Shown one piece after another: positions 12,518 to 29,090 of a stretch of DNA of 64,000 bases; position 1 is the first letter of the stretch; each line of letters begins with the position of its first letter. Location of the stretch: positions 2,294,001-2,358,000 of the forward strand of contig NZ_CP151273.1 of the NCBI RefSeq assembly GCF_038237375.1. Direction: 5' to 3'. Position numbers and translations under genes: made by a program. Source of the stretch: Alcaligenes sp. SDU_A2. Lineage in GTDB: Bacteria > Pseudomonadota > Gammaproteobacteria > Burkholderiales > Burkholderiaceae_B. Under the pieces are notes generated by a model. The model was not told where the DNA came from, ran no database searches, and was given only the letters and a program-made list of their open reading frames with translations.

Positions 12518-13459
12518 TCAAGCTCGTGCCTGGCGGGCGAGATGTGCGATAGTCAGTTCCGCATCGGCCATGCTGCGCTCGCCATCCTCCAGGAACCAGG
12601 CAGCCGACAAAGCAGCATGTGCCATCACCCATTTGAGCAAGCGTTCGCGCTCCAGCCCGGTAGCCTGGAGGATGACGCCAAGTTGCCGCGCAAAGCGCGC
12701 CGGGTCGGAGCACACCGCCAGGTCGGGGTTGCACAATACATGTACGTAATCGTAATAGCGCTCGCTGGTGACGCGCTTTGGATCTATCGCTAACCATCCG
12801 CGCTGCTCAAAATCGAGAATATTGCTGTGGTGCGCATCACCGTGCAGCACCACCTGCTCGCGCTGATCTCTCAAGAGCGTATCGGCCAGCGTTGCGCATT
12901 CGGCCATCAAGCCGCCTTCTCGCTGCGCCATCGGCGCAAGCGATCTAAAAAACTGCGCCAGTGATAGCAATTGATCCGGTGGAGGCGACAGTCGCTTTGC
13001 ATGCAACTGATGGATAGTGCGGCACATAGCACGCGTCGCCGCGTCATCGTCCCCTTCTGCCGCCATGCGCAGCAAATGCCTGGTGCCCAGTGCGCGCTCC
13101 ATCAGCAGCGTTCCCGTCGCCAAATCCCACGCATACACCCGGGCCGCGCCATCGCCCTCCCACCATTTCAGCACCTGACCACCAATCCGCTCATCACTAT
13201 CGTGCGCAATTTTGATCATCGCAGAAAGCCCCTCTTGTTTCCCGCCAAGGCTAACGGGTAAAAGGTCGCTTGTATCCGTGGCGAACGGATCGCCAGCCGC
13301 CTGTGCGTTCCAGCGTCGCAGGTAAGGATCAAAGAGCGTTAAGTTGGGTATGCGATTAATTTTTGTGCCTCCACGACCGTGCCATGCAACAGCGCATTTC
13401 GCCGCCCTGACGAAACCCTGGACGCGTGCATTGCCTTTAAACCATGCTCTTTCTACCAT
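12518..13459 (-). CDS. APH(6)-like aminoglycoside/hydroxyurea phosphotransferase
   Basis: About 313 residues with the kinase catalytic loop HGDAHHSNIL and the metal-binding IDPK segment, resembling the APH(6)/StrB and hydroxyurea kinase family. N-terminal half matches the family layout (LLPVSLGGKQEGLSAMIKI, then TGTLLMERALG). Resistance to streptomycin would be the textbook role, but chromosomal homologues are often silent. The start is uncertain; 13459 is the ATG nearest a plausible leader, and ATG codons further in are possible. The 5' end lies less than 30 bases from the left attachment repeat of the neighbouring element. Confidence 0.75.
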   Translation of the reverse strand: MVERAWFKGNARVQGFVRAAKCAVAWHGRGGTKINRIPNLTLFDPYLRRWNAQAAGDPFATDTSDLLPVSLGGKQEGLSAMIKIAHDSDERIGGQVLKWWEGDGAARVYAWDLATGTLLMERALGTRHLLRMAAEGDDDAATRAMCRTIHQLHAKRLSPPPDQLLSLAQFFRSLAPMAQREGGLMAECATLADTLLRDQREQVVLHGDAHHSNILDFEQRGWLAIDPKRVTSERYYDYVHVLCNPDLAVCSDPARFARQLGVILQATGLERERLLKWVMAHAALSAAWFLEDGERSMADAELTIAHLARQARA

Positions 13460-13487
13460 AACCGCCCACCCTAGGACGAGCACCGTG

Positions 13488-13503
13488 CCAACGGATTATG
13501 AGT
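13488..13503. repeat. Left attachment site (attL core)
   Basis: CCAACGGATTATGAGT, identical to 36101-36116 inside tRNA-Met. The sequence diverges at once on both sides, so the common core is exactly 16 bases. The left end of the element follows. Confidence 0.8.
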
Positions 13504-13633: not shown

Positions 13634-13885
13634 TCAATCGGCGCACTGCTTGGCGCGTTCCAGATTGTGCGCCAGGATCTGCTGCGCCGTCACATGGGTC
13701 AGCATGTCCTGCGGATGAATCAGGATATCGCGCGTCCACAGACAACCGGTATCAGTCACGCGACCAATGGCGGCGCAGCTGCTCAGCAGCGGCACCATCA
13801 GGCAAGCGCCCCACCGCCCGATCCGCCTTAGACCGAGACTGCGCGGCCGCAACGGCCTGATCGAGCTGTCGTTTGCGCTCATCAT
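13634..13885 (-). CDS. Outer-membrane spanin Rz1-like lipoprotein
   Basis: An 83-residue lipoprotein with lipobox LLSSC at about residues 33-37 after a basic leader. Its 5' part is embedded out of frame in the Rz-like gene and its 3' part extends beyond it, the usual Rz/Rz1 overlap. Spanins fuse inner and outer membranes in the last step of lysis. The start at 13885 is preceded by GGGAG; ATG 13900 is an alternative. Confidence 0.75.
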   Translation of the reverse strand: MMSANDSSIRPLRPRSLGLRRIGRWGACLMVPLLSSCAAIGRVTDTGCLWTRDILIHPQDMLTHVTAQQILAHNLERAKQCAD

Positions 13886-13994
13886 CAACTCCCTTCCCAT
13901 AACGTCCTTCACCATACAAGTGCACGGCAGCCAATGCCGCCAAGACCAGCGCAATGCCCGCCAGCCACTTCCAGGCACGAGCAGCCGGCATCAT
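13752..13994 (-). CDS. Inner-membrane spanin Rz-like protein
   Basis: An 80-residue protein with an N-terminal membrane anchor (WLAGIALVLAALAAVHLYG) and a charged coiled-coil-like tail (KGVDDERKRQLDQAVAAAQ). Such proteins partner with an overlapping lipoprotein to disrupt the outer membrane. The ATGATG start overlaps the TGA of the lysozyme gene. It is shorter than lambda Rz (153 residues), so the coiled coil is short. Confidence 0.75.
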   Translation of the reverse strand: MMPAARAWKWLAGIALVLAALAAVHLYGEGRYGKGVDDERKRQLDQAVAAAQSRSKADRAVGRLPDGAAAEQLRRHWSRD

Positions 13995-14671
13995 CACGCC
14001 TGCTCCCACAGAAAGCCCGGCAAACGCCCTCTGGCCAGGGCGGCCTGCACTTTGGCGCTGGCTTCTGCCTTGGTGATGCGGCCATCTCTGTTGGCATCCA
14101 ACCCTGCATTCTGACGGTACGTCACTGGTCGACTGGACAGGCTCCACAGCTCCCAGTGATCCGCCTTGCCGATGCCGGCAGGCCACAAAATCGCCATATA
14201 CACATCCGCCAGACCGGTCAGACGGCCTTGGTACGGCATGAAATACTGCAGGACATATTCCAGCTGCTGTTCGGCCGTCATGGCGGCCAGGCGCAAACAG
14301 GCATTCAGACCTGCCTGCCTGCGTTGCACCGCCGTCATTGCCTTGATCTGGGCCTTACTGTGAAAAAATCCGATAGCCGTGGTCGGCATGAACTGAATCA
14401 GTCCCGTCGCTCCGCTGCCGGCGGCATTGCGCACCGACGGGCTGAATGTTTCGGCCGACTCAAATGCCATGCACGCCATCAGATAATCCGGCTCCACGTC
14501 CAGAATCCGCGCAATCTCGAACACCCGGACGCGAAAGGCATCGCTGACCTTCAAGCCCCAGGCCAGATGCCGAAACGGTATCTGCTCGGCCGGCACGACG
14601 ATCGCATCCTCTTTCCGGGGCCGAAAAAAAAGAGCCGCCAGGCTCGCCATTTTTTTTAGCAGTGTCGTCAT
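13994..14671 (-). CDS. Phage lysozyme/transglycosylase with C-terminal EF-hand-like motif
   Basis: A 225-residue endolysin. The catalytic region (residues 50-150) has CMAFESAETFSPSVRNAAGS with the presumed catalytic Glu, and GATGLIQFMPTTA, the GLIQF signature of lytic transglycosylases in the SLT superfamily. Near the C terminus DANRDGRITKAEA matches an EF-hand calcium loop. No signal peptide is evident, so export would rely on the holins encoded just upstream. The start codons include an A-rich run and a GC hairpin with eight T's, which looks like a terminator inside the coding region. Confidence 0.82.
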   Translation of the reverse strand: MTTLLKKMASLAALFFRPRKEDAIVVPAEQIPFRHLAWGLKVSDAFRVRVFEIARILDVEPDYLMACMAFESAETFSPSVRNAAGSGATGLIQFMPTTAIGFFHSKAQIKAMTAVQRRQAGLNACLRLAAMTAEQQLEYVLQYFMPYQGRLTGLADVYMAILWPAGIGKADHWELWSLSSRPVTYRQNAGLDANRDGRITKAEASAKVQAALARGRLPGFLWEQA

Positions 14672-14680: not shown

Positions 14681-14956
14681 TCAGTCATGAACGGCCGATA
14701 CCATGCAGGCCACATTTCCCTTGGCCCGCCAGACCAGCACAGCAATGACCATCGTAAATGCCGCCTCCCAGCCGGACACCGGGCTGTGATTGAACAAGGC
14801 ATCGATCACCTGCCCGCCCGAGCTGACGATCAGGACATAGGCCAGCACTGACATGCCCGGCCTATAACGAGCGCAGCCACGACGGTAGCAGATCAACCGT
14901 CCCGCAGTCGCCACATTGGCCAAAACAGCAAAAACCGTGAATATCGAAGCAAGCAT
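14681..14956 (-). CDS. Small three-segment membrane protein, probable second holin
   Basis: A 91-residue protein with three hydrophobic stretches (MLASIFTVFAVLANVATAG; MSVLAYVLIVSSGGQVID; WEAAFTMVIAVLVW), similar to 3TM phage holins or holin partners. It sits between the first holin and the lysozyme gene. The start at 14956 lies two bases after the first holin's stop codon. Its exact role (holin or antiholin) cannot be told from sequence. Confidence 0.65.
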   Translation of the reverse strand: MLASIFTVFAVLANVATAGRLICYRRGCARYRPGMSVLAYVLIVSSGGQVIDALFNHSPVSGWEAAFTMVIAVLVWRAKGNVACMVSAVHD

Positions 14957-14957
14957 G

Positions 14958-15305
14958 CTATGAACCCCGTTTGAAAATAGTGCTGATATCGAATGTCTTG
15001 ATTTTTTCGATGCCGGCCAAGGCCAGCGTAACCACCGTGGAAGACAGCCCGAAAGCGGCAATTGTCCAGCTTTGCAAGCCTGTCTGCGTCATGACTTCAC
15101 TGGCCCCCATATAGCCGATCAGGATAGAGATCAGCATGTAGACCAGCCGTTTGAGCAGACCCAGCTCCTTGGCCTGCAACGCAAATACCGTTGCACCGGC
15201 AAACGCCCCGATCAAGGCATCGCCGTTGACCCCCGGCAACAAAGACGTCATGACCACCGCCCAGAGCGTCGCCAATGCCGATGCGGCGCTTGATGTCGAC
15301 TCCAT
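14958..15305 (-). CDS. Phage holin
   Basis: A 115-residue protein with three or four membrane helices (SALATLWAVVMTSLLPG, ALIGAFAGATVFAL, LVYMLISILIGYMGA, TIAAFGLSSTVVTLALAG) and a short basic tail. This form and its place as first gene of the lysis group identify it as a holin that opens the inner membrane to the endolysin. GGGAGA precedes the ATG at 15305. Divergent from the recombinase gene, so the 97-base gap to 15403 holds both promoters. Confidence 0.72.
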   Translation of the reverse strand: MESTSSAASALATLWAVVMTSLLPGVNGDALIGAFAGATVFALQAKELGLLKRLVYMLISILIGYMGASEVMTQTGLQSWTIAAFGLSSTVVTLALAGIEKIKTFDISTIFKRGS

Positions 15306-15402
15306 GGTTTCTCCCAAAAAAACACAATCAAACGGGTTGCTGTAAAAAATCACAGTTGAACTATTTATTTAGGCGGCATACAAGGCATATTTCGGATTAG
15401 CC

Positions 15403-16389
15403 ATGAATACCGACCGCCAACGCCGCCTGTCACGCTTCTGCCCGTCACTGACCCAGGCCTTGGAGCGATACCTGAGCGAGGTCTCGGTACTCAAGAAGTC
15501 CGCCTATCAGGAACGCTCTCTTGCCCGGGCCTGGATGAGCACCCTGCTGGCCGGGCGCAATCTGGCCAGAATTACCCAACAGGATCTGCAGCGCATCCGG
15601 GACGAATGGATGCAAGAAAAAGCACCGGCCACCGTCAATCGGCGCATGGCCCTGCTGTCGCATCTGTACACGGTGGCCCGCAAAGACTGGGGCTACAGTT
15701 GGCTGGCCAACCCTGCCCAGCTCGTGCGCCGTCCCGCCGTGAACGATGCGCGCGACCGCCGGCTGTTCACACAGATCCGGCTGTATGGCGTCAGCCCCGA
15801 GGAGTGCCCGCGCTCGGAGATCGACTGGATACTGAAACACACCCGTTCCGAAAGCTTGCCCACCATCGTGGCCCTGGCCGTGGAAACAGGCATGCGCCGC
15901 TCCGAAATCGTCATGCTGACCCGCGAGCAGATCGACCTGACGCACGGTGTCATCACCTTGCAGGACACCAAGAACGGCGACACCCGCTACGTACCGCTGA
16001 CACCCTTTGCCCGCGACGCGCTGCGCAAATGGCTGGTCGGCAAGCCGCTGCGCGGGCGCATCTTTGACGTCTCGCCCGGCTCCATCAGCCGCGCCTTTGC
16101 ACGCGCGCGCGAACGCGCGCGGCACGCCTACGGCCAACTGTGCCGACAGTATGGCCGCCGGCCGGTACGCGCTTATTTTCTGGATCTGCGCCTGCACGAC
16201 CTGCGGCATGAAGCGACCTCGCGACTGGCCGACGTATTCCCCGCCCACGAGCTGGCCAAGGTCACGGGGCACAGGGACACGCGCATGCTGCAACGCTACT
16301 TTCATCCCCGTGGGCGGGATTTGGCGCAAAAACTGATGCGCAGCAAACTAGGCCGCGCCCAGGTCGAGCAATTACGCTTCACCGCCTGA
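15403..16389 (+). CDS. Rci-like tyrosine recombinase (shufflon invertase)
   Basis: A 328-residue tyrosine recombinase. An N-terminal SAM-like core-binding domain (residues 20-105) precedes the catalytic domain with all expected residues: Arg in ETGMRRSEIVML, Lys in DTKNGDTRYVPL, His-x-x-Arg in LHDLRHEATSRL, His in VTGHRDTR and the nucleophile Tyr in MLQRYFHP. It is distinct from the integrase beside tRNA-Met. It lies on the opposite strand to the tail genes, ends 18 bases inside the 3' end of the fibre assembly gene and is about 740 bases from the first inversion site. By analogy with Rci of plasmid R64 it should invert the six fibre segments. The alternative, a second integrase, is less likely because no other attachment site is seen. 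Confidence 0.85.
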   Translation: MNTDRQRRLSRFCPSLTQALERYLSEVSVLKKSAYQERSLARAWMSTLLAGRNLARITQQDLQRIRDEWMQEKAPATVNRRMALLSHLYTVARKDWGYSWLANPAQLVRRPAVNDARDRRLFTQIRLYGVSPEECPRSEIDWILKHTRSESLPTIVALAVETGMRRSEIVMLTREQIDLTHGVITLQDTKNGDTRYVPLTPFARDALRKWLVGKPLRGRIFDVSPGSISRAFARARERARHAYGQLCRQYGRRPVRAYFLDLRLHDLRHEATSRLADVFPAHELAKVTGHRDTRMLQRYFHPRGRDLAQKLMRSKLGRAQVEQLRFTA

Positions 16390-17067
16390 CACGGGCCACA
16401 CCACGGCCTTGACGGCCTGCGCCGTCAGGGCCACCTGGACCTGATCGCGCAAGCGCTGACGCGTACCCACCAGTTGCTGGCTGGACTGCAGGAACAGACG
16501 GGCCTGGTCCAGGGTCTTTTGCCGCATATCCTGGGCCGAAATGCCCCTGGCGGCAGCCAGACCGTCCAGATAGGGAGTGGGCGCCGTGGGATCGGCCGCC
16601 CAGGCCAGCGCTTCGGTGCGCTGTTCCGGCCAGGTCAGACGCTCGGCCTCGGGATAGCCCGAGGTCAGCTCGATGGCGGCCTGCTCGAACGCCGCATTGA
16701 TCTGGGCCAGTTGCATGGCCTGAAGCTGGACAAGGGTCGGCTCCGCGACGGGCGGTGCCTCGACACTGAGCCAAGCGGGCACCGGGCCCAGACCGTTGTA
16801 GGTCTGCCCCTTATGCTCGCTGCCTACGGTGTACAGACCATCGCTGGTATACAGGCTGGTCTGGCGATGGTCATCCACCCGCTCCCAGACACCCGTACCA
16901 GGATCGCCATACTCCACGGCGTTGATGTCAACGCTCGACGCCCAACGCAGTACCTGACCGGCCGGAACCTCGCTCGGCGGACGAACAATCACATCCCCAA
17001 AACCTTTATCGGCATAGGATGACTGACCACACAGCAAGCCGTGAGCATCGGTTTGAAAATTTGGCAT
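16372..17067 (-). CDS. Tail fibre assembly protein
   Basis: A 231-residue protein with an N-terminal beta-rich part (SDGLYTVGSEHKG) and a C-terminal helical region (LTWPEQRTEALAWAADPTAPTPYLDGLAAARG) that is characteristic of phage tail-fibre assembly chaperones. These help fold and trimerise the fibre tip. The start at 17067 is preceded by AGGAG; an upstream in-frame ATG lacks this. It sits 60 bases from the outermost shufflon site, so the fibre gene and its chaperone flank the variable array. One chaperone must serve all the alternative tips. Confidence 0.8.
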   Translation of the reverse strand: MPNFQTDAHGLLCGQSSYADKGFGDVIVRPPSEVPAGQVLRWASSVDINAVEYGDPGTGVWERVDDHRQTSLYTSDGLYTVGSEHKGQTYNGLGPVPAWLSVEAPPVAEPTLVQLQAMQLAQINAAFEQAAIELTSGYPEAERLTWPEQRTEALAWAADPTAPTPYLDGLAAARGISAQDMRQKTLDQARLFLQSSQQLVGTRQRLRDQVQVALTAQAVKAVVWPVSGGEA

Positions 17068-17126: not shown

Positions 17127-17152
17127 CTGCAAATGCGAGGGGGTTAGGTTCG
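17127..17152 (+). repeat. Shufflon site S1 (outer end)
   Basis: CTGCAAATGCGAGG followed by GGGTTAGGTTCG, reading rightward. This is the only site in the array besides S13 without a head-to-head partner and spacer, so it marks the distal end of the shufflon. Confidence 0.85.
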
Positions 17153-17416
17153 AGCCAAGCTGATGCATCTCAGAGGATTTATGCCACAGCAGATTTTCGA
17201 GGGGCGGGAGCCGCAGGGCATGACGGCGCTATGGTAATGGCCCACGGTGCGGCTTCCTCTCTTCCCCGTGGTGGCATTGGGGGAGCATCTAATGTTCAGT
17301 TGGGATCAATCACTACTCCTGCGGACAGACTTGATTTTGATTCGGCTCGCATAGCTCGTACCGCCAACGAAACAAGGCCTACTAATATGGCCTTTCATCC
17401 ACGGATTCAAATCTGA
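17127..17416 (+). CDS. Silent fibre-tip cassette 1
   Basis: Open frame from site S1 to stop, encoding ANARGLGSSQADASQ through ETRPTNMAFHPRIQI. It has no start of its own and is silent unless brought behind the fixed fibre region at 20447. Its C-terminal part (ARIARTANETRP) resembles cassettes 5 and 7, forming one sub-family. Confidence 0.8.
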
Positions 17417-17609
17417 ATTCGAGGATGTAGTGCTACGTTTAGAGGCCGGGTTTCAGTGCCTCCTACCGTTGTAGTGGCCCAACGTGACGAACCGCTTCCT
17501 GGCACCCCGTACGAGGTTCCAGTAGACCCAGCAACTAGTCCAATCGTCTCATGGGCGTGTGCACGAAACGCGTCTCCCTGTGTCGAACCCAACCCCCTCA
17601 CATTTGCAG
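17407..17609 (-). CDS. Silent fibre-tip cassette 2
   Basis: Reads leftward from site S2: ANVRGLGSTQGDAFRAHAHE, then a Gly/Ser-rich body, ending ETRPLNVALHPRIQI. It is among the shortest cassettes, about 67 codons. The AHAHE segment resembles metal-binding His-x-His motifs in phage fibre tips. It overlaps cassette 1 tail to tail by 10 bases. Confidence 0.8.
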
Positions 17610-17650
17610 ACAGATGGCCACTTCGCTGCAAATGTGAGGGGGCTGAGTAG
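17584..17650. repeat. Shufflon junction S2/S3, spacer orientation A
   Basis: Two sites head to head: S2 (17584-17609, leftward, GTG allele) and S3 (17626-17650, rightward, GTG allele). Between them is the 16-base spacer ACAGATGGCCACTTCG at 17610-17625. Confidence 0.88.
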
Positions 17651-17831
17651 TTACCAGAACGATCGACTTAGTAAACACGTGCATGCATACGGCGGAACTG
17701 TTGCTATAAACGTTGGCTCTCAGCAAAACATCATTACAGGAACCACCGGATCAGCTGCAATCACGGAGAGCACAGGGGGAAGCGAAACCCGCCCAGAAAA
17801 TACCGCTCTTCACCCACGCATTCAGATCTGA
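17626..17831 (+). CDS. Silent fibre-tip cassette 3
   Basis: From site S3: ANVRGLSSYQNDRLSKHVHA, a short body with TGTTGSAAITEST, ending ETRPENTALHPRIQI. Intact frame, no start of its own. The KHVHAYGG segment again gives His-x-His. Overlaps cassette 4 tail to tail. Confidence 0.8.
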
Positions 17832-17845
17832 ATGCGTGGGTGAAG
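17808..17845. repeat. Tail-to-tail palindrome, segment 2
   Basis: A perfect 38-bp palindrome centred on AGATCT where cassettes 3 and 4 meet. Both strands encode the HPRIQI-stop end. No T run follows, so it does not look like an intrinsic terminator. Confidence 0.75.
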
Positions 17846-18048
17846 GGCTGTGTTAATTGGACGAGTTTCCTTCCCGCCCGTGGACATAGTAGGTAATTTC
17901 CCCCCCGGCTCCAGGTAATCATAAGCGTCAACAGCGCTACCAAAAATGAAGTATCGACTACCTGTGTTTCCCTGCGGGGTAGGCACAAAATGCGAGTGGG
18001 CTTGTAGTTCTTCCACTTGCCGACTACCCAGCCCCCTCGCATTTGCAG
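17822..18048 (-). CDS. Silent fibre-tip cassette 4
   Basis: From site S4 leftward: ANARGLGSRQVEELQAHSHF, then TGSRYFIFGSAVDAYDYLEPGG, ending ETRPINTALHPRIQI. Intact open frame of about 75 codons. It carries a His-x-His (AHSHF) like cassettes 2, 3 and 12. Confidence 0.8.
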
Positions 18049-18089
18049 ACAGATGGCCACTTCGCTGCAAATGTGAGGATAGTAGGTAG
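18021..18089. repeat. Shufflon junction S4/S5, spacer orientation A
   Basis: S4 (to 18048, leftward, GCG allele) and S5 (from 18065, rightward, GTG allele) flank the spacer ACAGATGGCCACTTCG at 18049-18064. S5 departs from consensus after the core (AGGATAGTAGG instead of AGGGGGCTGGG), so it may be a weaker site. Confidence 0.85.
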
Positions 18090-18336
18090 CTATCAGTTTG
18101 ATGCGATTCAAAGACACACAGGTGCAGTAGAGAAAATCCAACTGGCTGATGGAGGAGGGATTCCATCAGGCGTCTTTAACTTGTCTAGATGGAATAGATA
18201 CAGCTCATACACAGTGTCAGCAGAGCCATTAGGCCACGCGCTGCACAATATCGAATTCGATGTATCTCGTGTTGCTCGAACAGCAATAGAAACTCGACCT
18301 ACAAATACCGCACTCCACCCCCGGATTCAGATCTGA
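18065..18336 (+). CDS. Silent fibre-tip cassette 5
   Basis: From site S5: ANVRIVGSYQFDAIQRHTGA, a Ser/Asn-rich body (FNLSRWNRYSSYTVSAE), ending ETRPTNTALHPRIQI. It lacks the RGLG that all but one other cassette have after the site. Related at its C terminus to cassettes 1 and 7. Confidence 0.8.
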
Positions 18337-18354
18337 ATCCGGGGGTGGAGTGCG
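18309..18354. repeat. 46-bp perfect palindrome, segment 3
   Basis: Every base from 18309 to 18354 pairs with its mirror across the centre between 18331 and 18332 (AGATCT core). It is the tail-to-tail join of cassettes 5 and 6. Perfect palindromes this long are unusual in bacterial chromosomes and prone to replication errors. Confidence 0.85.
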
Positions 18355-18580
18355 ACGTTGGTAGCCCGTGTTTCAGCCTTATCACCATACGAAGCATAGC
18401 CATATATAAGGCCCTGATCAGTGCTCCAGGGAGCCCCTATCGTGGCTGCTAGCCCTACGTTTATTAAAGATGCTCTGTCTAAAGTGTGAAGATTTCCGCC
18501 AGTTAACAAGCCATAAACTGGTACCAGCCCCTTTTTAACCGAGTCAGCTTGCTGGCTAGCCAGCCCCCTCACATTTGCAG
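18327..18580 (-). CDS. Silent fibre-tip cassette 6
   Basis: From site S6 leftward: ANVRGLASQQADSVKKG, then LLTGGNLHTLDRASLINVG, ending ETRATNVALHPRIQI. Intact frame. The ETRA end differs from the usual ETRP. Confidence 0.8.
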
Positions 18581-18622
18581 CGAAGTGGCCATCTGTCTGC
18601 AAATGCGAGGTGGTTGGGATCA
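18555..18622. repeat. Shufflon junction S6/S7, spacer orientation B
   Basis: S6 (18555-18580, leftward, GTG) and S7 (18597-18622, rightward, GCG) flank the spacer in flipped form, CGAAGTGGCCATCTGT at 18581-18596. The flip shows that this junction lay inside a past multi-segment inversion. Confidence 0.88.
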
Positions 18623-18862
18623 ACCCAAGGAGACGCCATCCGGAATATCACGGGTACATATGGAAATGCTTCTTGGAGAGACCCGAGTGGCTCATGGACT
18701 GAAGCCTCAGGGGCATTTCACGCTGCTTATTACGCCGGTTTATCCGGGAATATTGGGAACCACTTGGGTACGTATTTAACATTTAATGCGGCCCGAGTTG
18801 TGCCTACAGCGAACGAAAACCGGCCGAGAAACACAGCTCTTCACCCCCGGATTCAAATCTGA
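18597..18862 (+). CDS. Silent fibre-tip cassette 7
   Basis: From site S7: ANARWLGSTQGDAIRNITGT, then WRDPSGSWTEASGAFHAAYY, ending ENRPRNTALHPRIQI. Trp replaces Gly after the site because S7 reads GAGGTGG. Related to cassettes 1, 5 and 9 by the ITGT/AAR pattern. Confidence 0.8.
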
Positions 18863-19157
18863 ATCCGAGGATGGAATGCAGTGTTAATTGATCGGGTCTC
18901 GCTACCTCCGAACGGCGCAATTCGCATGCCATATGCCGTGAGACCATTCCATTCACCGCCAGCTGTATTCACGTTAGCTTTGGTGACCTGTAGGCCTATA
19001 TGTGCGCTGCCCGAAGTCGAGGCGCTAATCGAGTTAATGTCGATATCGGGGCGCGTAACCCCCCACGTTTGGCTATTGTTTATCGACGCTTGGAACTGTG
19101 GGGACTGTCGCTTAATTGAATCATTCTGAGTAGAACCCAACCCCCTCACATTTGCAG
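18853..19157 (-). CDS. Silent fibre-tip cassette 8 (paralogue of the expressed tip)
   Basis: From site S8 leftward: ANVRGLGSTQNDSIKRQSPQ through HIGLQVTKANVNTAGGEWNG to ETRSINTAFHPRIQI. It aligns along its length with the tip now joined to the fixed fibre (IKRQQPAF, THIGLRVTTANVN, NAYGLRI), so these two arose by duplication. At about 101 codons it is one of the longest cassettes. Confidence 0.82.
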
Positions 19158-19199
19158 CGAAGTGGCCATCTGTCTGCAAATGTGAGGGGGCTCGGCACC
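19132..19199. repeat. Shufflon junction S8/S9, spacer orientation B
   Basis: S8 (19132-19157, leftward, GTG) and S9 (19174-19199, rightward, GTG) flank the flipped spacer CGAAGTGGCCATCTGT at 19158-19173. Confidence 0.88.
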
Positions 19200-19433
19200 A
19201 TACAGATGGACGCGATCCAAAGGGCTACCGGGACCATTATCGACGTTGCTGCAGGAACCAACGGTGGAGCCAATGGTGCATTCAGTAAATCTCGTGATGC
19301 CGGCCTAGCTTATGCGGTACCTGGCGGAGTCGGAAACCTACGATTTATGGATGTGATGTTGTCTGCGACGAGTCGCATGTCGTCAGAAACACGCTCTACC
19401 AATACTGGGCTCCATCCCCGAATTCAGATTTGA
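19174..19433 (+). CDS. Silent fibre-tip cassette 9
   Basis: From site S9: ANVRGLGTIQMDAIQRATGT, then GGANGAFSKSRDAGLAYAVPGG, ending ETRSTNTGLHPRIQI. Intact frame. The DAIQR(A/H)TG motif is shared with cassette 5. Confidence 0.8.
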
Positions 19434-19647
19434 ATCCGAGGGTGGAACGCCGTATTGCTGGGGCGTGTTTCAGTCCCCTGGTTTGCGAACATTGCTGCTG
19501 ATAATGCTCCTATAGAACCCGCTGTATCTGCCCCGACCAAGTGTATGGATGAGCCTGTAGTATCAAAGCCGTTTGAAGACCAGGTCTGAATCGGCAGCAT
19601 CTTGGTGGCCATGGCTTGTGCGCTACCTAGCCCCCTCGCATTTGCAG
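19424..19647 (-). CDS. Silent fibre-tip cassette 10
   Basis: From site S10 leftward: ANARGLGSAQAMATKMLPIQTWSSN is interrupted by no stop and runs to ETRPSNTAFHPRIQI. It has no clear relative among the other cassettes apart from the two conserved ends. Confidence 0.8.
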
Positions 19648-19689
19648 ACAGATGGCCACTTCGCTGCAAATGCGAGGGGGCTGGGTTCG
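19622..19689. repeat. Shufflon junction S10/S11, spacer orientation A
   Basis: S10 (19622-19647, leftward, GCG) and S11 (19664-19689, rightward, GCG) flank ACAGATGGCCACTTCG at 19648-19663. S11 is the left boundary of the segment that currently carries the expressed tip. Confidence 0.88.
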
Positions 19690-19887
19690 TTTCAGCTACA
19701 GCAGTTTGCTTCGCACTATCATCAGCTGCCGACTGACATATTTTTTGATGCACATGGAGACCGTGTATTCAACCCCGAAGGGGGGCAAAGAATTTCATCA
19801 AATAATCCTCTTCGCCCCACACATGTGGCGGGTGGTACGGAAACAAGGCCGAATAACACAGCTCTTCACCCCCGGATTCAAATCTGA
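19664..19887 (+). CDS. Silent fibre-tip cassette 11
   Basis: From site S11: ANARGLGSFQLQQFASHYHQ, then FFDAHGDRVFNPEGGQRISS, ending ETRPNNTALHPRIQI. One simple inversion of the last segment (19664-20446) would place this tip behind the fixed fibre region. It has a His-x-His (SHYHQ). Confidence 0.82.
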
Positions 19888-20135
19888 ATGCGAGGGTAAA
19901 GGGCTACGTTTGCGGGTCTGGTTTCTACGCCTCCTGTTTCTGCTGTTGCCACCCTAAACCCTATTGCAGCCTGGTCATTAAAATGTGGTGGTGCCACCTC
20001 TTGCCAGGGAGATCTCACATGCCCGAAATCGGCAAACACCAGCCTGCCGTAGCCCCCCCTTCGGTCATAAGACTGTGATCATGTGATTGCAGCCGCCCCA
20101 GTTGCGTAGACCCTAGCGCCCTCGTGTTTGCATTG
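19878..20135 (-). pseudogene. Embedded fibre-tip cassette 12, frameshifted at a G7 tract
   Basis: Between the stop of the expressed fibre and cassette 11 lies another tip on the minus strand. It begins NANTRALGSTQLGRLQSHDHS in one frame, meets seven G's (C's at 20053-20059 on the plus strand), and then reads out as ISGM-stop. In the other frame it continues YGRLVFADFGHVRSPWQEV and ends ETRPANVALYPRIQI. Losing two or gaining one G would restore one open frame of about 85 codons. Its head (ATGCAAACACGAGG) matches only 11 of 14 site bases, so it is probably not a crossover target and moves only with its segment. Confidence 0.75.
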
Positions 20136-20144
20136 AAAAAGTCT

Positions 20145-21086
20145 TCAGACATGGATTCTCGGATGAAAAGCGACATTAATCGGGCGTGTCTCGGTGCCGC
20201 CAAACGACGAGATGCGCAGACCATAAGCATTAACCCCGTCCCAGCCTGCGCCGATATTATTGACGTTTGCGGTGGTGACCCGCAAACCGATATGCGTCGT
20301 GCCGGTACCCGAGGAGCCGCTATTGACGTCCAGAGTGGAGCGTCTGACGGTCCACGGTGCCCCGATACTAGTCGCTGCATCGAACGCGGGCTGTTGTCGC
20401 TTGATCTCGCCGACTTGCTGCGTTCCGAGTCCCCTCGCATTTGCAGTGTCAGCGTCAGTTCCGGTCGCGCGGATGAATTGGTCGCGCAAATCGGGCAGGC
20501 GGACGTTGTTGCCCGAGAGCACCGAAAACTTGAATGTGCCTTTGCTCCAGGCCGTCGAGGCGACCATATGGCCATTGGCTTCGGCCCAGGCGATCAGGGC
20601 ACGAAAGCGTGCCTGGCTGCGATCCACGGTCTGGCCAATCGCATCGACTTCGTCCGCGCGGGCGTTGATGGACGTGCCCCAGATAAAGCGTCCCACATTG
20701 GGGCTGACATAGCCCGTGAAGGAGCCGATCACCTGCCAATGCAAAATTTGCTGGCGGTCGATGGCGTACACCAGCGGACCCACATTGGTCGCCGGCGCGG
20801 ACGGATACACAGGAATAGACAAAGCCCGGATGGCGCGCGAAAGCGTATCCGTGCTGCCGGCCGACATCGTCAGGTTGGCGTCGGTCGCCGCCTTTTTGAT
20901 CTGCTCGAACAAGTAGTTCGTTTTTTCGTCCGCGATCTGGCTGATGCGGTTGAATTGCTCGACCGAAGGCGGCACCGAGCCGATCACGGCCCAGCCCTGC
21001 TTGTATTGGGCATCATCCCAATTGAACGCGGTTCCGGCCTGGGCCCACTTGTACCCGAATGCATCAAAGAAATTTACCGATGGCAT
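20145..21086 (-). CDS. Tail fibre/collar protein, currently expressed form
   Basis: A 313-residue fibre. Residues 1-213 are fixed: an N-terminal baseplate-attachment region, then a tail-collar type segment ending LPDLRDQFIRATGTDADT. Residues 214-313 are the variable tip, starting at site S13 (ANARGLGTQQVGEIKRQQP) and ending ETRPINVAFHPRIHV, a slight variant of the array's HPRIQI end. The tip is paralogous to cassette 8. The fixed part is preceded by an intrinsic terminator (21099-21124). As the last fixed structural gene before the array, it is the receptor-binding component of the tail. Confidence 0.88.
   Translation of the reverse strand: MPSVNFFDAFGYKWAQAGTAFNWDDAQYKQGWAVIGSVPPSVEQFNRISQIADEKTNYLFEQIKKAATDANLTMSAGSTDTLSRAIRALSIPVYPSAPATNVGPLVYAIDRQQILHWQVIGSFTGYVSPNVGRFIWGTSINARADEVDAIGQTVDRSQARFRALIAWAEANGHMVASTAWSKGTFKFSVLSGNNVRLPDLRDQFIRATGTDADTANARGLGTQQVGEIKRQQPAFDAATSIGAPWTVRRSTLDVNSGSSGTGTTHIGLRVTTANVNNIGAGWDGVNAYGLRISSFGGTETRPINVAFHPRIHV
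20421..20446 (-). repeat. Shufflon site S13 inside the fibre gene
   Basis: CTGCAAATGCGAGG on the minus strand, in frame as GCA AAT GCG AGG at codons 214-217. This is the anchor at which all alternative tips are joined. Upstream sequence is fixed; there is no spacer copy here. Confidence 0.88.
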
Positions 21087-21178: not shown

Positions 21179-21835
21179 CTACAGTTGCCGCGCCAGCACG
21201 CCGACGCCAAACCCATAAAATCCCTGGCTGACAAAGCCGAACGGCTTCTGATCCGTATTGGCCAGCAGTTCCACCCCCACCCCGGCCAACGCTGGCACCC
21301 AGCGCTCGGGATGCACCATCAACGCCGGGTTGGTCTGGGGCGTGGTGTTGAACCAGACGCCCAGCCTGGCATTGCCCAAATCCCGCACTCGCACGATAGA
21401 TGCATCAAAGATGGCTTTGACCGAAGCGGCGATCTCGGGCGCAGTGCCGTGACCGTTGTTCAGACCGATTTTCCAATACAAGATCTTGCGGTACTCCGCA
21501 TCCGGCAAGCGGCTCGAACCGGCAACCGAGGGCTCGTAATGCCTACGCAGACGCGCCTTGCCAAAGCCGGCGACACTGGCCTGGCCCTGGAAGCCGAAGA
21601 ACTGCACGAACAGCGTGTCATCGATCTCGCGCGGCTGGCCGACAATCTCGCCGATGCCATCGAGCTGCCTGCCCAGTGCCGTATCCAGCCACCGCTCGTC
21701 ATACAGTGCCTGTAACTGCCCATGCTGCACCGGCGCATACAAGGCGCGCACTACGGATTCCAAGCGTGCCGATTTGCCGTACTGTGCCAGAAAATGCCCC
21801 CAGGCAATGTCTGCGTGGTCTTGTTCCAGGTCCAT
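21179..21835 (-). CDS. DUF2612 baseplate protein
   Basis: A 218-residue protein of the DUF2612 family found between baseplate J and the fibre in contractile tails; it plays the role of a gpI-like wedge or fibre connector. Features include RWLDTALGRQLDGIGEIVGQPR and YRKILYWKIGLNNGHGT, typical of the family. Its start overlaps the J stop (TGATG). Confidence 0.82.
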   Translation of the reverse strand: MDLEQDHADIAWGHFLAQYGKSARLESVVRALYAPVQHGQLQALYDERWLDTALGRQLDGIGEIVGQPREIDDTLFVQFFGFQGQASVAGFGKARLRRHYEPSVAGSSRLPDAEYRKILYWKIGLNNGHGTAPEIAASVKAIFDASIVRVRDLGNARLGVWFNTTPQTNPALMVHPERWVPALAGVGVELLANTDQKPFGFVSQGFYGFGVGVLARQL

Positions 21836-23286
21836 CAGGTCACCTCGATGCGGCTGGCGTCGAACAGTGCTTTCTGCACACCGGCGATCGTAATATTGCC
21901 CGCCGAATAGTCGCCGGGGCCGGGCACGAAGGCCGGGTCAGTCGACCGAGCAAACTGCAGATCCACATCGGCAATGCCCCGCGTGGTGTAAATCTGGGCA
22001 AAAAACCGCTGAATACGAACATCCTGACCGATGGCATGACTGGCACCGGTGGCCAGGATGGCGCTCTGGATCTGCTCGAAACCATCCGATGGGAAGGCCT
22101 GCTCGTCCGGCGGCAGAAGCGTGACACGGGCACGCGCCCACACATAGACAGGCTGGGGCCGATCAAACCGGACAAGCTGCATCCCCTGGGGCGTATCCAA
22201 GGTCTTGGCGACTTCCCCATTGGTATCAATGCCCGCGCCCTTATACCGGTAGACGGCTTGCGCGACGTCGTCGTCTATGCCGCCGTCCACCACCACATGC
22301 ACGCTATGGGGCTTGCGCCCTGCTACATCCATCACATCGGTGGCGTTGTCAAAAACACGGATGTCCACAATGCCGGGAACATCGTTCAGAATATTGGGTC
22401 CGATGCTGGGCAAGGTGCCCGCACCAAAACGGAACACACCCAGGCGATAACGCGCGCGCAGTTGGGCATCACTCTCGGGTAGGCGGCCGACCGCGGCAGC
22501 CTGCAGATTCACCACCCGCGTCCAGCCCGGAACCAAGGTAACAATAGAGTCCAGATCGCCTGGGCCTGCCGTTTCGGCAATCGCTGCCACGGTCTGGGCC
22601 AACACCGCCGAACCCACTTCATTGAACGCCAGATTGCCGCTCAGTTGAATACTGACAGCGACCGTGGCAACCGCCGTCAGACGAATGGCGGCACCATCGC
22701 TGGATACCCGCAAGCCGCTGGTGGCCAAGGCAGCCACCAGGCCGGCCAACACAGCAGCGATAGTGGCGTCGGCCTGGCTGGCATAGGCATACGGCACGCC
22801 ATCCACGGTGATCCGATACACCGCCGATGGCTGAACGACTGGCACGATTCGCACGTCCGCGGCCGCAGCGGCACTGATCGTGACCGCTTCAGCCGTCTGC
22901 CAGACGCTCTGCGTGACGCGGTGCCGGATCTGCGCGCCGGCGGGAACCTGCGTACCTTGCAAACCATAAGCGACTACGTAGGCTCGACTTGGCTCGGGCG
23001 GAAGACGCTTCACCCCCGAAAACGACACCGCACGATCCAGCGATACGCCGGTCGCCGACCCCGGATACATGGAGTAATAAACGCCCTCCCCCATTTCCCA
23101 CAGCGCTGCCTCGCGCTCGGCAAAGGTGTCCACAAGCACGCCCGTCACCGAGTCCGGGCGGGTCTCAATGTCGGCAGACAAGCCTCGAATGCGCAGGTTC
23201 TTGCGCAGCTCTTCGATGATTTCCATACGAATCTCGGGCAGGCGCGGGCGCACAAAGCCCTCCGGAGTCACACCGTAATCAGCCAT
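21835..23286 (-). CDS. Baseplate J-like protein
   Basis: A 483-residue baseplate wedge protein of the gpJ family: the N-terminal region contains a PEIRMEIIEELR helix and the centre has GWTRVVNLQAAAVGRLPESD and LRARYR, family landmarks. It forms the peripheral baseplate ring in contractile tails. Size and place (after gp25-like, before DUF2612) are as expected. Confidence 0.9.
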   Translation of the reverse strand: MADYGVTPEGFVRPRLPEIRMEIIEELRKNLRIRGLSADIETRPDSVTGVLVDTFAEREAALWEMGEGVYYSMYPGSATGVSLDRAVSFSGVKRLPPEPSRAYVVAYGLQGTQVPAGAQIRHRVTQSVWQTAEAVTISAAAAADVRIVPVVQPSAVYRITVDGVPYAYASQADATIAAVLAGLVAALATSGLRVSSDGAAIRLTAVATVAVSIQLSGNLAFNEVGSAVLAQTVAAIAETAGPGDLDSIVTLVPGWTRVVNLQAAAVGRLPESDAQLRARYRLGVFRFGAGTLPSIGPNILNDVPGIVDIRVFDNATDVMDVAGRKPHSVHVVVDGGIDDDVAQAVYRYKGAGIDTNGEVAKTLDTPQGMQLVRFDRPQPVYVWARARVTLLPPDEQAFPSDGFEQIQSAILATGASHAIGQDVRIQRFFAQIYTTRGIADVDLQFARSTDPAFVPGPGDYSAGNITIAGVQKALFDASRIEVT

Positions 23287-23297
23287 GTTTCAAAGTC

Positions 23298-23660
23298 CTA
23301 TTGAATAACGGAGACCGTCAGCGGGCCTTCGTCTGTTTCGATATCGGGCAACGTGATACGCGCCCGACGCGCCAAAGCGTCGATCTGAATATCTACGGCG
23401 GGCACAGCTTTTACGCCAGGCACATCGCGCACCTTGGCGCGCACCAGGTTTTCGATCTCGACCCGACTGGGTGCCTTGACCATGATCTTCTCGAAATAGG
23501 GCATGCCCCAGCTCTGATCCAAAAACCACTCGCCCAGAAAGGTCAGCAAAGTCACCGTGATCTGCTGACGAATCCGCTGGGCACCACCGACCAACATCAG
23601 ATCCTGATCCGTCCCCACAGCCAGATCATGCTTGTTATCCAGTTTCAGATCCCATCCCAT
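23298..23660 (-). CDS. Baseplate wedge gp25-like protein
   Basis: A 120-residue protein with LDNKHDLAVGTDQDLMLVGG and LLTFLGEWFLDQSWGMPY, typical of the gp25/gp46 (DUF2634-like) wedge family, which also shares the lysozyme-like EPR-type fold region. Start overlaps the spike gene's stop (TAATG). Confidence 0.85.
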   Translation of the reverse strand: MGWDLKLDNKHDLAVGTDQDLMLVGGAQRIRQQITVTLLTFLGEWFLDQSWGMPYFEKIMVKAPSRVEIENLVRAKVRDVPGVKAVPAVDIQIDALARRARITLPDIETDEGPLTVSVIQ

Positions 23661-24331
23661 TACACCGGCCCCCCAGACTTGCTACCACCAGACTGCACGC
23701 CGCTGTGCGCGTGGTCAGAACCGATGTTCTTATTGTTGTGCGTAAGCCGCCCGCCCTGGAAGCTGGCACCGCCTTGAATGCTGATCGAATGGCCCTGCCC
23801 GCCGGACCCCGCCATGCCGGCGGTATAAGTCAACAGGCCATTGATGGTCACTGGGCTATCAAAAACCGTTTCGTCTGCAATGACATGCTGACGCGGCACC
23901 CGGATGGTCAGGCTGCCGTCGGGAGCCAGCTTCATCGAGCCGGCACCGTACTGAACCGAGACGTTATCCGTATCGGCCTGCGGCCCTGGCCGCATGACCG
24001 GCGAGGCGAAGGCATCGGTCAGATCGAACTGGCGCGGGTCATCGGGAGCCTGATCCGATCCGGACAGCCAGTTTTCCAGGCTGCGCTGCGAGAAATGCAG
24101 CAGCACCGGATCGCCCGCTTTCAGCGGCACCGTAATCATGGCCCGCCCGCCGTCCGCAATCGGCCAGCACACCGGCACCTGCACAATCATGGGCGCGGCC
24201 AGGGTTTCACCATTGGCCAATTGCTTGGGCAAGGCCGGTCGAACCGTTGCGCTGACTCCATCGTAGGCCTGGATCACACCAGGCAGGCACACATTGACTT
24301 CCGCCAACGCCACCGCAATTTGCTCATTCAT
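23660..24331 (-). CDS. Baseplate spike protein (Gp138 N-terminal family)
   Basis: A 223-residue central spike. The N-terminal OB-like domain (residues 10-120, with PGVIQAYDGVSATVRPALP and LKAGDPVLLHFSQRSLENWL) matches Gp138-type spikes. The beta-helical C-terminal part ends in a His-containing tip (NNKNIGSDHAHSG) that likely binds metal at the apex. It punctures the outer membrane. The start at 24331 overlaps the hub stop by ATGA. Confidence 0.87.
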   Translation of the reverse strand: MNEQIAVALAEVNVCLPGVIQAYDGVSATVRPALPKQLANGETLAAPMIVQVPVCWPIADGGRAMITVPLKAGDPVLLHFSQRSLENWLSGSDQAPDDPRQFDLTDAFASPVMRPGPQADTDNVSVQYGAGSMKLAPDGSLTIRVPRQHVIADETVFDSPVTINGLLTYTAGMAGSGGQGHSISIQGGASFQGGRLTHNNKNIGSDHAHSGVQSGGSKSGGPV

Positions 24332-25248
24332 GGTTTTCCCTTTTCTTTGGACACGGCATGTCGGCTCGCCAGCTTCAGTTCGGTGATCCACTCGCCCTGC
24401 CCGCTCCAATCGCCTTTATGCTGCACCGTCTCGATACGAAACCAATCTGTGGCAGCGGAGCATTCCAGCTTGACCAGATCGCCCGGGTTCAAGGTCGGCA
24501 AGAGCAAGGATTTCACGCTCCAGCCATCGCTCTGCTGCCGGGACGACACTGTTTTCTGATTATCATCGGTCTTTTGGGAGTCCTGACGGGCCTTCTCGCG
24601 CGCACTTTCACCCACACGCTCCGGAACTCCGACCAGGCCACTATCGGCGGCCAAAACAAAGCCCTCGCGAGGCGTGACTCCCCCACGCCGGATCACCTGC
24701 AACTCGCCGTTCTGGATGGAATATTCCAAGCCGGTACCTTGCACAACCTTATGCAACGCCACGTGTGCCGCGCCGTAATAGCTAAAGCCGTTCTGCCAGA
24801 CCCGATCAGGCACATCGGCAGCCATCTTCAGGCGCAAGCCCATCTTGCGGGCAATATCCTGCACAATGGATCGCGCCCGCACACCAGGAGCACAGCCCAA
24901 ACTGACCACCGTATCGCGGATCTGCGCAAAGCCATCCCGCACATCCAGCTCGGTAATCATATCGACCCCGTCCGTGTACGTGCGGCCGTGCAGCAAGGTG
25001 CCATACGCCATCAGTAGCGCACCGTCCTCCTGCGCGTAGCCGGCATATAAGGCAACGACATTGTCGGGTTCGACCATCGTCTCGCGCGTGGTCAGGCTCA
25101 GATTCCAGATCTTGATCTTGATCTTGTTGGGCTCCTCGCTCGTATCCTTGGAAACATCAAATGTGATGCGCAGCGGCGGGGCTATCTCGACACCGGTCTG
25201 ACCCGGCTTACCCACCAAAAGCCGATAAATCCGATCAAAGCGCGGCAT
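24328..25248 (-). CDS. Baseplate hub protein (gp27/gpD-like)
   Basis: A 306-residue hub protein. N-terminal LRITFDVSKDTSEEPNKIKIKIWNL is typical of this hub family, and LNPGDLVKLECS near the C terminus belongs to the last barrel. Hubs link the tail tube to the spike. It overlaps the upstream small baseplate gene by 14 bases. Confidence 0.84.
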   Translation of the reverse strand: MPRFDRIYRLLVGKPGQTGVEIAPPLRITFDVSKDTSEEPNKIKIKIWNLSLTTRETMVEPDNVVALYAGYAQEDGALLMAYGTLLHGRTYTDGVDMITELDVRDGFAQIRDTVVSLGCAPGVRARSIVQDIARKMGLRLKMAADVPDRVWQNGFSYYGAAHVALHKVVQGTGLEYSIQNGELQVIRRGGVTPREGFVLAADSGLVGVPERVGESAREKARQDSQKTDDNQKTVSSRQQSDGWSVKSLLLPTLNPGDLVKLECSAATDWFRIETVQHKGDWSGQGEWITELKLASRHAVSKEKGKP

Positions 25249-25561
25249 ACTCGGCCTCGCTCATGTAATACAAAGTGGCCTGGGCATTCCTGAAGGAATC
25301 TCGCCCTAACGACAGGCTGTCATCCTGCCGATGCACCATAAACTCTCCAGGCGGCACGGCCAGGTGCCTGAACTGCCCCAGCAAAGGGCTGCCTGGCACC
25401 AGGGCCACGCCCTGCAATACAACGGCCGTGCGGGCGTCTTGCAGCCCCAACACCCACAGACCGGCCTCGCTGTTCCAGTCCAGTCGTAAAAAATAGGTGT
25501 TTCCCTCCAGGCTGGCTTCAACGACGAAGCTGTTCTGGTCTGCCAATGGAATCGCAATCAT
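25235..25561 (-). CDS. Baseplate plug-like protein (DUF6983)
   Basis: A 108-residue protein of the size and pattern of small baseplate plug proteins: IPLADQNSFVVEASLEGNTYFLRLDWN, then RHLAVPPGEFMV. The start at 25561 is the first ATG that fits the family; the longer frame overlaps the previous gene deeply. Family assignment is from memory of the motif. Confidence 0.7.
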   Translation of the reverse strand: MIAIPLADQNSFVVEASLEGNTYFLRLDWNSEAGLWVLGLQDARTAVVLQGVALVPGSPLLGQFRHLAVPPGEFMVHRQDDSLSLGRDSFRNAQATLYYMSEAEYAAL

Positions 25562-25575
25562 GTGCCTTACTCCGT

Positions 25576-26121
25576 TTATGTCACCGGGGCCGGCGGCACG
25601 TCCGTGGCCGTGGCATCGCTGACCTTGCCGCTCTTGGCCCCCGTCTGTCCGGCCTTGCCCTTGGCAGACTGCGCCACATTGGCCGGGGGCAAATGCCCTT
25701 CCCGCAACGTCACCATGACGATTTTCTGAAAGCTGCACTCCAGGCTTAATTGTTCACCACTCGGACTACGCGAGATCTTGGCGCTCAGCATCGCAAAATT
25801 CACGTAGACATCGGACCCCGTCACAATGGTGACCGGTACGCGCCGCTCCTGAATCTGGCGCAGCGCGTCTTTGACCGCCATCAATTTGGAACGACCGCTC
25901 GAGCCGAACGCAAAAATGCTGGCTGCCGTGATCACCCCGGACACCGTCAACTTTTCGGGCTCGCAAGCGATATGGTCCGTAATCGTGCTTCCATCCTCGA
26001 CTGCGTGCGCACTGACCTTGGCGGACAGTTCGGTCTGCTCGGTCAGCAACGCATCCAAGGGAATACTGCCCACCAGCGTCTGATTGCCTGTCAGACCAAA
26101 CAACAAAGATACAAATGCCAT
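25576..26121 (-). CDS. Dit-like baseplate/tail protein
   Basis: A 181-residue protein with SAHAVEDGSTITDHIACEPEKLTVSG, the pattern of the Dit-like N-terminal domain in this tail type. The C-terminal 40 residues are Gly/Ala/Lys-rich and low complexity. A GTG nine bases upstream (26130) could also serve as start. It lies downstream of a terminator after the tape measure gene. Confidence 0.75.
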   Translation of the reverse strand: MAFVSLLFGLTGNQTLVGSIPLDALLTEQTELSAKVSAHAVEDGSTITDHIACEPEKLTVSGVITAASIFAFGSSGRSKLMAVKDALRQIQERRVPVTIVTGSDVYVNFAMLSAKISRSPSGEQLSLECSFQKIVMVTLREGHLPPANVAQSAKGKAGQTGAKSGKVSDATATDVPPAPVT

Positions 26122-26133
26122 ACTGAGCACCCA

Positions 26134-26156
26134 TAAAAATGCCGCCCAAAGGCGGC
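26134..26156 (-). terminator. Intrinsic terminator between tape measure and Dit genes
   Basis: On the minus strand GCCGCC (26151-26156 complement) pairs with GGCGGC around a 4-base loop, then five T's. It sits inside the tail operon. Confidence 0.72.
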
Positions 26157-26161
26157 TGACC

Positions 26162-28000: not shown

Positions 28001-28125
28001 TTTCTATCCGCCAGGTGTTCGGCCTGAGCCGCGGCCTCGGCGTCCATGAGATGGTTGAGTTTGATCAAATCGAGCAGCAGGACCTCCCGCCGGCGCACTT
28101 CGCCGACGGTGGTCCGGCCTGCCAT
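27997..28125 (-). CDS. Small protein after the tail chaperone (possible frameshift extension)
   Basis: A 42-residue open frame starting MAGRTTVGEVRRREVLLLDL. The same frame is open back to 28227 across the end of the chaperone gene, in the -1 frame relative to it. That is the position and shape of a gpGT-type extension, but I see no classic slippery heptamer, so independent initiation at 28125 is also possible. Confidence 0.5.
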   Translation of the reverse strand: MAGRTTVGEVRRREVLLLDLIKLNHLMDAEAAAQAEHLADRK

Positions 28126-28139
28126 CACAGGCCGCCAGA

Positions 28140-29050: not shown

Positions 29051-29063
29051 TTCCGGCTCCAGA

Positions 29064-29090
29064 AAGAAAAGCCCAGCTCATGGCCGGGCG
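29064..29090 (-). terminator. Terminator-like hairpin between sheath and tube genes
   Basis: On the minus strand GCCCGGCC and the facing arm ending GGGC form an imperfect stem followed by TTTTCTTT. Weaker than the other late-operon terminators. Confidence 0.5.

Follow-up and report, generated by a model that had tools for sequence, protein, structure and literature searches.

An array of tail fibre tips that is probably switchable

The window analysed here is a 64,000-nucleotide stretch of Alcaligenes sp. SDU_A2 (NZ_CP151273.1, positions 2,294,001 to 2,358,000), and it contains a 22.6-kb phage-like element whose tail fibre gene runs into an array of twelve alternative C-terminal ends (hereafter tips). 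We interpret this array, with a probability of roughly 0.87, as a working-type shufflon for tail fibre tips. The anatomy of the array, the reading frames of the tips, the family of the adjoining recombinase, the association of enzyme and sites across related genomes, inversions between relatives and the mixed orientation of short spacers in the window support this interpretation directly. From these we infer that inversion takes place in this strain, that the adjoining enzyme catalyzes it and that the tips bind receptors.

A letter search of the window for CTGCAAATGYGAGG (14 bp) returned twelve exact copies between 17127 and 20446 in strictly alternating orientation, letter-perfect except at one C/T position and with the core CTGCAAATGYGA. 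The first-pass annotation, made from the DNA letters of the window, had described this arrangement as six segments that each carry two fibre cassettes on opposite strands, all in frame; all twelve sites were recovered, and all twelve tips are open. The six site-bounded segments measure 483, 423, 516, 561, 474 and 783 bp and are laid out with the fibre gene as follows:

20148-21086 (-): tail fibre gene as assembled, 313 amino acids (PHROG tail fibre families; structure model)
Sites: 17127(+), 17596(-), 17626(+), 18035(-), 18065(+), 18567(-), 18597(+), 19144(-), 19174(+), 19634(-), 19664(+), 20433(-)
17127-17609: segment 1, tips 17129-17413 (+) and 17410-17607 (-)
17626-18048: segment 2, tips 17628-17828 (+) and 17825-18046 (-)
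18065-18580: segment 3, tips 18067-18333 (+) and 18330-18578 (-)
18597-19157: segment 4, tips 18599-18859 (+) and 18856-19155 (-)
19174-19647: segment 5, tips 19176-19430 (+) and 19427-19645 (-)
19664-20446: segment 6, silent tip 19666-19884 (+), decayed thirteenth tip at about 19885-20133 (-) and fibre-joined tip 20148-20444 (-)
17610-17625, 18049-18064, 18581-18596, 19158-19173, 19648-19663: 16-bp spacers between segments

When up to three mismatches are allowed, CTGCAAATGYGAGG has 26 matches in the window against 15.8 expected, and it is therefore the exact copies that stand out. The whole 3.65-Mb genome holds 13 exact copies, twelve in the array and one elsewhere, near a second copy of the recombinase, and the same pattern read backwards has no copy in that genome. 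Because twelve exact sites lie here and one elsewhere in the genome, we reject chance repeats as an explanation.

The junction with the fibre gene lies where it had been placed, at codon 214: the open reading frame starts at 21086, site base 20446 falls within codon 214, and the constant part of the fibre extends up to codon 213. Each of the twelve tips opens from its site in the frame xANxR and runs for about 66-100 residues; the paired tips of each segment converge tail to tail, and their last codons overlap. In agreement with the ending near HPRIQI claimed for the cassettes, eleven tips end in HPRIQI, and the tip that the assembly places on the fibre gene ends in HPRIHV. An alignment of the tips has diverse middles and fixed ends, with invariant A1, N2, R4, Q10, E81, R83, N86, H90, P91, R92 and I93; the frame through GCA-AAT-GYG is kept in every tip, and the shared final strand reads ETRPxNxALHPRIQI. 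In the structure model, this final strand packs back onto a constant collar-like domain, and the variable middle is inserted into a domain that resembles the fibre tips of phage T4. A Pfam search with the twelve tips gave nothing beyond one match at E 0.17, and a search of solved structures with the fibre sequence gave no match.

One identical, asymmetric 16-bp spacer parts all five internal pairs of back-to-back sites, in the orientations F, F, R, R, F. Plain duplication would have oriented all spacers alike, so the mixed orientations point to inversion between outward-facing sites, and the spacer sequences of the window thus suggest the footprint of past inversion. The decayed thirteenth tip (19885-20133, minus strand) has a site-like ATGCAAACACGAGG at 20120 with three mismatches and begins NANTRALGSTQ before the frame is lost; its far end carries ETRPANVALYPRI in another frame. 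Since this remnant tip and its site lie within segment 6, the array was once larger. As a separate observation, near-perfect palindromes (CACCCNCGNATTCAGATCTGAATNCGNGGGTG) occur where the two stop ends of a segment meet, for example at window positions 17805-17850 and 18310-18350; a second substrate for inversion or strand slippage is possible at these segment centres.

A tyrosine recombinase outside the Rci branch

Two genes lie beside the array, including the complete tyrosine recombinase that had been noted there:

15403-16389 (+): tyrosine recombinase, proposed shufflon invertase, 328 amino acids (PF00589, E 1.2e-21)
16372-17067 (-): gene between recombinase and array, PHROG 2618, 231-237 amino acids, conserved beside the recombinase in 5/5 relatives

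The catalytic residues of the recombinase (R165, K190, H265, R268 and Y299) are invariant in 16 relatives. Its AlphaFold model (mean predicted local distance difference test score 86) matches Tn1549 Int, lambda Int, XerA, XerH and Cre and ends in one helix. A main role as the integrase of the element was considered and rejected, because a separate integrase (34831-35985) sits beside tRNA-Met at the other end of the element. Judged by its position, the PHROG 2618 product is probably a fibre-associated or assembly protein.

The first-pass annotation called the recombinase Rci-like, after the enzyme of the R64 pilV shufflon. The name fits its proposed mode of action, but the enzyme is not a member of the R64-type Rci family. 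A 51-row tree places the window enzyme in a 28-row branch (100/97), with R64 Rci and a Salmonella plasmid homologue outside, and the residues past the aligned part number 17 in the window recombinase versus 101 in R64 Rci.

Recombinase and sites occur together in related genomes

We sought relatives of the recombinase in 268 genomes of the family, in GTDB contigs and in IMG/VR, and scored a locus as site-bearing if TGC[AG]AATG occurred in both orientations within a 5-kb flank. This recombinase group is mainly found in Burkholderiales; the organism names include Castellaniella, Paracandidimonas, Bordetella, Achromobacter, Paenalcaligenes, Corticimicrobacter, Herbaspirillum, Herminiimonas, Paraburkholderia, Burkholderia and Pandoraea. 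The genomes searched held no other isolate of the window's own species.

After duplicate removal, 62 distinct loci encode a recombinase of at least 55% identity, and 45 of these have the 5-kb flank. The first-pass annotation had proposed searching related genomes for inverted sites near such an enzyme, and the search was productive: 41 of the 45 loci carry sites in both orientations (the others are L070, L134, L139 and L158). The corresponding count is one of six loci at 44-55% identity and none of the 45 distinct loci with enough flank below 44%. We attach no probability to this association of enzyme and site, since the rows are related by descent. The twelve sites of the window are the most among the 45 near loci, followed by ten at the next highest. 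The count at 44-55% identity needs a qualification: L162 and L166 have their sites on the other side of the recombinase gene, and L163/L072 have four sites.

Contigs end within 1 kb past the recombinase at 11 of the 62 loci in the near group versus 2 of 51 in the far group. Mixed arrangements of an array would cause such an excess, which may also have other causes. A further observation concerns many of the relatives, among them L045, L062, L069 and L159, where arrays of the type +++-- hold several tips in direct order. Recombination between direct repeats would delete tips from these arrays, and a strong preference for inversion, or some other safeguard, is thus expected.

Relatives differ by inverted segments

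The clearest inversion comes from a comparison of loci L080 and L081. Their arrays have collinear flanks (93% identity over 770 bp and 96% over 1948 bp) and share a 489-bp segment that lies in opposite orientation at 97.5% identity. At the inverted tip, the letters right of the site are preserved, whereas those left of it change from ...TTATGGGA to ...TTACTCCA, which places the exchange in or next to CTGCAAATG. An inverted shared segment is also present in the collinear pairs L079/L081, L039/L080, L147/L148 and L159/L160; the five pairs have members in common and so are not five independent events. Another 23 pairs had identical arrays and were left out of the comparison; most of them look like one strain or record present in two collections.

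Tips have also changed partners. The window tips at 17410-17607 and 17628-17828 belong to neighbouring segments, and their closest relatives (75-76% identity) are partners within a single segment of L081 (L081:5160-5555). Inversion at the sites alone is insufficient to explain this change.

Proposed mechanism and competing explanations

In the mechanism we propose, the recombinase acts on a short asymmetric site (core about CTGCAAATG): two copies in opposite orientation, whichever they are, would be paired and the DNA between them inverted, such that the tip brought next to the codon-214 site would become the last ~66-100 residues of the fibre. Because each of the six segments holds two opposite-strand tips with overlapping stop ends, single or multiple inversions could in principle bring any of the twelve tips to the fibre. 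If every +/- pair were usable, the 11 modules would allow 176,947,200 arrangements. With the variable middle modelled as an insertion in a domain like the T4 fibre tip, a change of tip should alter receptor choice. The shuffling of receptor range across the population, as put forward in the first-pass annotation, is a prediction.

Several observations weigh against a working shufflon. Arrays L096 and L103, from two metagenomes, keep eight tips in one same order, and arrays L040 and L082 are identical. One tip of the window has decayed along with its site, and tips run in wrong frames in L039, a locus of the same genome, and likewise in L079. The last two points would fit a frozen array, that is, a shufflon that once worked but whose enzyme or sites have lost their function in this strain. 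Yet the twelve intact sites have kept every letter but the one C/T position, no stop or frameshift interrupts the twelve tips, and the recombinase is intact with a nonsynonymous-to-synonymous ratio (pN/pS) of 0.12 against the congeneric genome G055 (synonymous sites near saturation); we thus regard a frozen array as improbable.

Very improbable, in our assessment, is that the neighbouring recombinase is only an integrase and that another enzyme, or homologous recombination between tips, rearranges the array: NCBIfam and PHROGs do match the PF00589 protein to Xer/integrase models only, and the partner swap between the window and L081 needs more than site inversion, but the element has its own integrase beside tRNA-Met, site presence tracks this recombinase clade, the sites (14-44 bp) are short for homologous recombination, the inverted segments end at the sites, and the PHROGs scan of 28 element proteins turned up no serine recombinase.

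Comparison with known systems

The proposed shufflon resembles the R64/IncI pilV system and its recombinase Rci, which likewise combines multiple inverted sites, C-terminal cassettes on both strands and an adjoining tyrosine recombinase. That R64 has the same plan had been stated in the first-pass annotation and is borne out by the R64 record NC_005014, which contains seven sites (GTGCCAATCCGG) and 8-bp spacers with one copy each way; in both systems, the site reads into the cassette and the short spacers of back-to-back sites occur in both orientations. By contrast, the window array serves a phage-tail fibre rather than a pilus tip and has twelve sites and twelve tips, where R64 has seven sites, with a spacer of 16 bp. 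The window recombinase is 37% identical to R64 Rci, groups outside its branch and lacks its C-terminal domain. A by-eye comparison without a chance test finds 8/12 letters shared between the R64 core GTGCCAATCCGG and the core of the window sites.

The view given in one report is that Rci is restricted to inversion by cooperative binding, probably through its C-terminal domain, and the domain is reported there for all 14 homologues considered (PMC11852207). One of the enzymes in that report, for example SI-B. ubonensis, may belong to the clade of the window enzyme, though the domain is reported there in all 14.

The first-pass annotation judged a tyrosine-type shufflon in a contractile tail to be unusual. 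This judgement stands, but such a system is not unprecedented: two reports describe Rin, a tyrosine-family shufflon of Bifidobacterium prophages (PMC6109161) that was reported again in Eggerthella prophages (PMC8778435). As in the window, where the action of the enzyme is presumed, Rin is a tyrosine invertase beside the C-termini of receptor-binding proteins in a prophage that has a separate integrase elsewhere. The Rin systems differ in belonging to actinobacterial phages, in having five full-length forms of the receptor-binding protein and in using 11-bp or 8-bp repeats of other sequence (PMC6109161, PMC8778435). Relative to Rin, the window array is a larger, Gram-negative, contractile-tail form, likened by anatomy and not by descent of the enzyme.

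Inversion also swaps fibre C-termini in Mu (Gin), P1 (Cin), p15B (Min) and carotovoricin Er, and these switches, unlike the window, use serine recombinases, which form another family. Most serine-invertase fibre switches have fewer tips than the window. Carotovoricin is a tailocin with fibre inversion, as cited in PMC13280938. Our literature search, with preprints and most subscription journals outside it, found no work joining a shufflon with a tailocin and, in the accessible texts, no description of a tyrosine-type fibre shufflon in Burkholderiales.

PAJU2-like Pseudomonas phages encode a 38%-identical enzyme deposited as 'shufflon-specific DNA recombinase' (MK511001-MK511014). We considered this name as support and rejected it, since related loci lack such arrays: no inverted site array lies within 5 kb downstream in the 45 loci below 44% identity, including the PAJU2 copy in IMG/VR (L211). 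The label on the PAJU2-like enzymes is probably a carried-over name.

A contractile tail cluster without head genes

The element extends from an attachment (att) core at 13488 to a core within tRNA-Met at 36101-36116. The contractile-tail context of the array, another point of the first-pass annotation, is provided by a tail module at 21182-31210. Features beyond the array and its neighbours are:

13488-13503: left att core CCAACGGATTATGAGT, 16-bp exact repeat of the tRNA-Met anticodon region, within a 46-nt repeat of 76% identity
13755-15353 (-): lysis genes, Rz-like spanin (13755-14186) and two holins (14684-15061, 14961-15353) (PHROGs, Pfam holins)
13997-14671 (-): lysis gene, PHROG 4928/baseplate-hub C-terminus-like, lysozyme-type (PHROGs)
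21182-31210 (-): contractile tail module with DUF2612 baseplate protein, baseplate J, wedge, spike, hub, plug, Dit-like protein, tape measure, tail assembly chaperone, tube-like protein, sheath (29101-30561) and tail terminator
31480-31959: small junction gene
31947-32663: DUF6475/helicase-loader-like gene
32602-33408: O-like replication initiator
33895-34233 (+): CI-like regulator
34831-35985 (+): separate phage-type integrase (PF00589, PHROG integrase)
36071-36149 (-): tRNA-Met with right att core (36101-36116)

We did not retain a Mu-like or P2-like designation of the tail, as the Pfam names are those of E217 gp41-like, Pam3-type and DUF2612 baseplate proteins. Immediately beyond the left att core lies an open reading frame for an APH(6)/hydroxyurea-type kinase (12518-13483, minus strand; PF04655, E 2e-71).

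PHROGs scans of 28 element proteins gave no match to a large terminase, portal, protease or major head family, a feature of the tail cluster on which the first-pass annotation had not remarked. The loose label 'head and packaging, (virion) structural protein' is attached by PHROGs to three tail proteins, and a small-terminase family matches the CI-like protein weakly (E 1e-4). Genome-wide, matches to PHROG 2, 9 and 12 all lie outside the element, and PHROG 38 has no match. With no head genes found, the cluster may encode a bacterial weapon able to change its target, and we lean towards a headless tailocin-type cluster over an infectious phage. In gene content, with contractile tail, lysis and regulator genes and no large terminase, portal or capsid, the cluster recalls R-type tailocins. 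Unlike them, the element has retained replication-type genes, its integrase and an att repeat, and its fibre carries a shufflon.

The same retained genes (integrase, att repeat, O-like replication initiator and repressor) would suit a broken prophage that has lost its head module, a serious competitor that we place somewhat below an even chance. Such a history would also agree with head-bearing relatives in genomes G204 and G042, where terminase, portal and head genes lie between the junction/replication genes and the tail terminator, and with a sheath tree of seven rows (G055 and G093 left out) that requires at least two changes between headed and headless. Simple decay sits less well with genome G055, whose cluster is likewise headless and has its tail genes in the same order, together with a repressor and O/P-like replication genes. 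The G055 cluster lies at a tRNA-Met adjoined by an nhaA-like gene 82% identical to that of the window, with no integrase in the stretch examined. Tail genes of the window are constrained relative to G055 (pN/pS 0.21-0.52), and lysis genes are present. These two features suggest tailocin use over decay, and neither is proof.

Headless arrangements also recur across the family. The sheath of the window occurs in two of the ten genomes of the genus (the window's and G055) and in 22 of the 268 family genomes, and a PHROG 38 terminase lies within 15 kb in 8 of these 22 and not in the other 14. PHROG 9 and 12 were checked in ten of the 22, and full gene order was read in four headless genomes (G055, G022, G031 and G037) and in the headed G204 and G042. 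The G204 locus (G204:C17:286001-326000; L226, L227) is a head-bearing relative of the window tail with a 73%-identical sheath. The list from the 268-genome scan contains no shufflon-clade recombinase for G204, which offers an outgroup for the gain of the shufflon.

A module shared with head-bearing phages

The same combination of recombinase, neighbouring gene and fibre region is present in head-bearing phages with another sheath family, namely at a second locus of the window's own genome and in G268 and G270 (head genes by PHROGs for G268). Occurrence in both headed phages and headless clusters indicates that the fibre-and-shufflon block moves between them. A fuller picture would join three elements: a headless contractile particle whose killing range would be set at random in each cell by a choice among twelve tips, giving one clone as many as twelve weapons, a separate tyrosine-invertase lineage that favours alternating inverted sites without the Rci-type C-terminal domain, and a module exchanged between phages and bacteriocins. 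We advance this combination tentatively, as a possibility only just short of even odds.

If this picture is true, the contractile weapons or phages released by a single clone could span a dozen receptor specificities, and targets that become resistant by receptor loss would meet a population already holding the next fibre. The clade comprises dozens of natural arrays whose common site can be read in the sequence, so that ordinary long reads suffice to measure switching, and invertases without the C-terminal domain of Rci allow a direct test of whether that domain enforces inversion over deletion. Assembled fibre tips in Achromobacter, Bordetella and related genomes may each represent one of several states, and contigs of these genomes may break at such arrays.

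The second locus of the window's genome (L039; C1:1192322-1195090) encodes a 92%-identical recombinase beside a four-site array in which two tips are out of frame, within a prophage that has a terminase and a portal. Its sites share their core with those of the window, and exchange between the two loci, 1.1 Mb apart, is thus conceivable.

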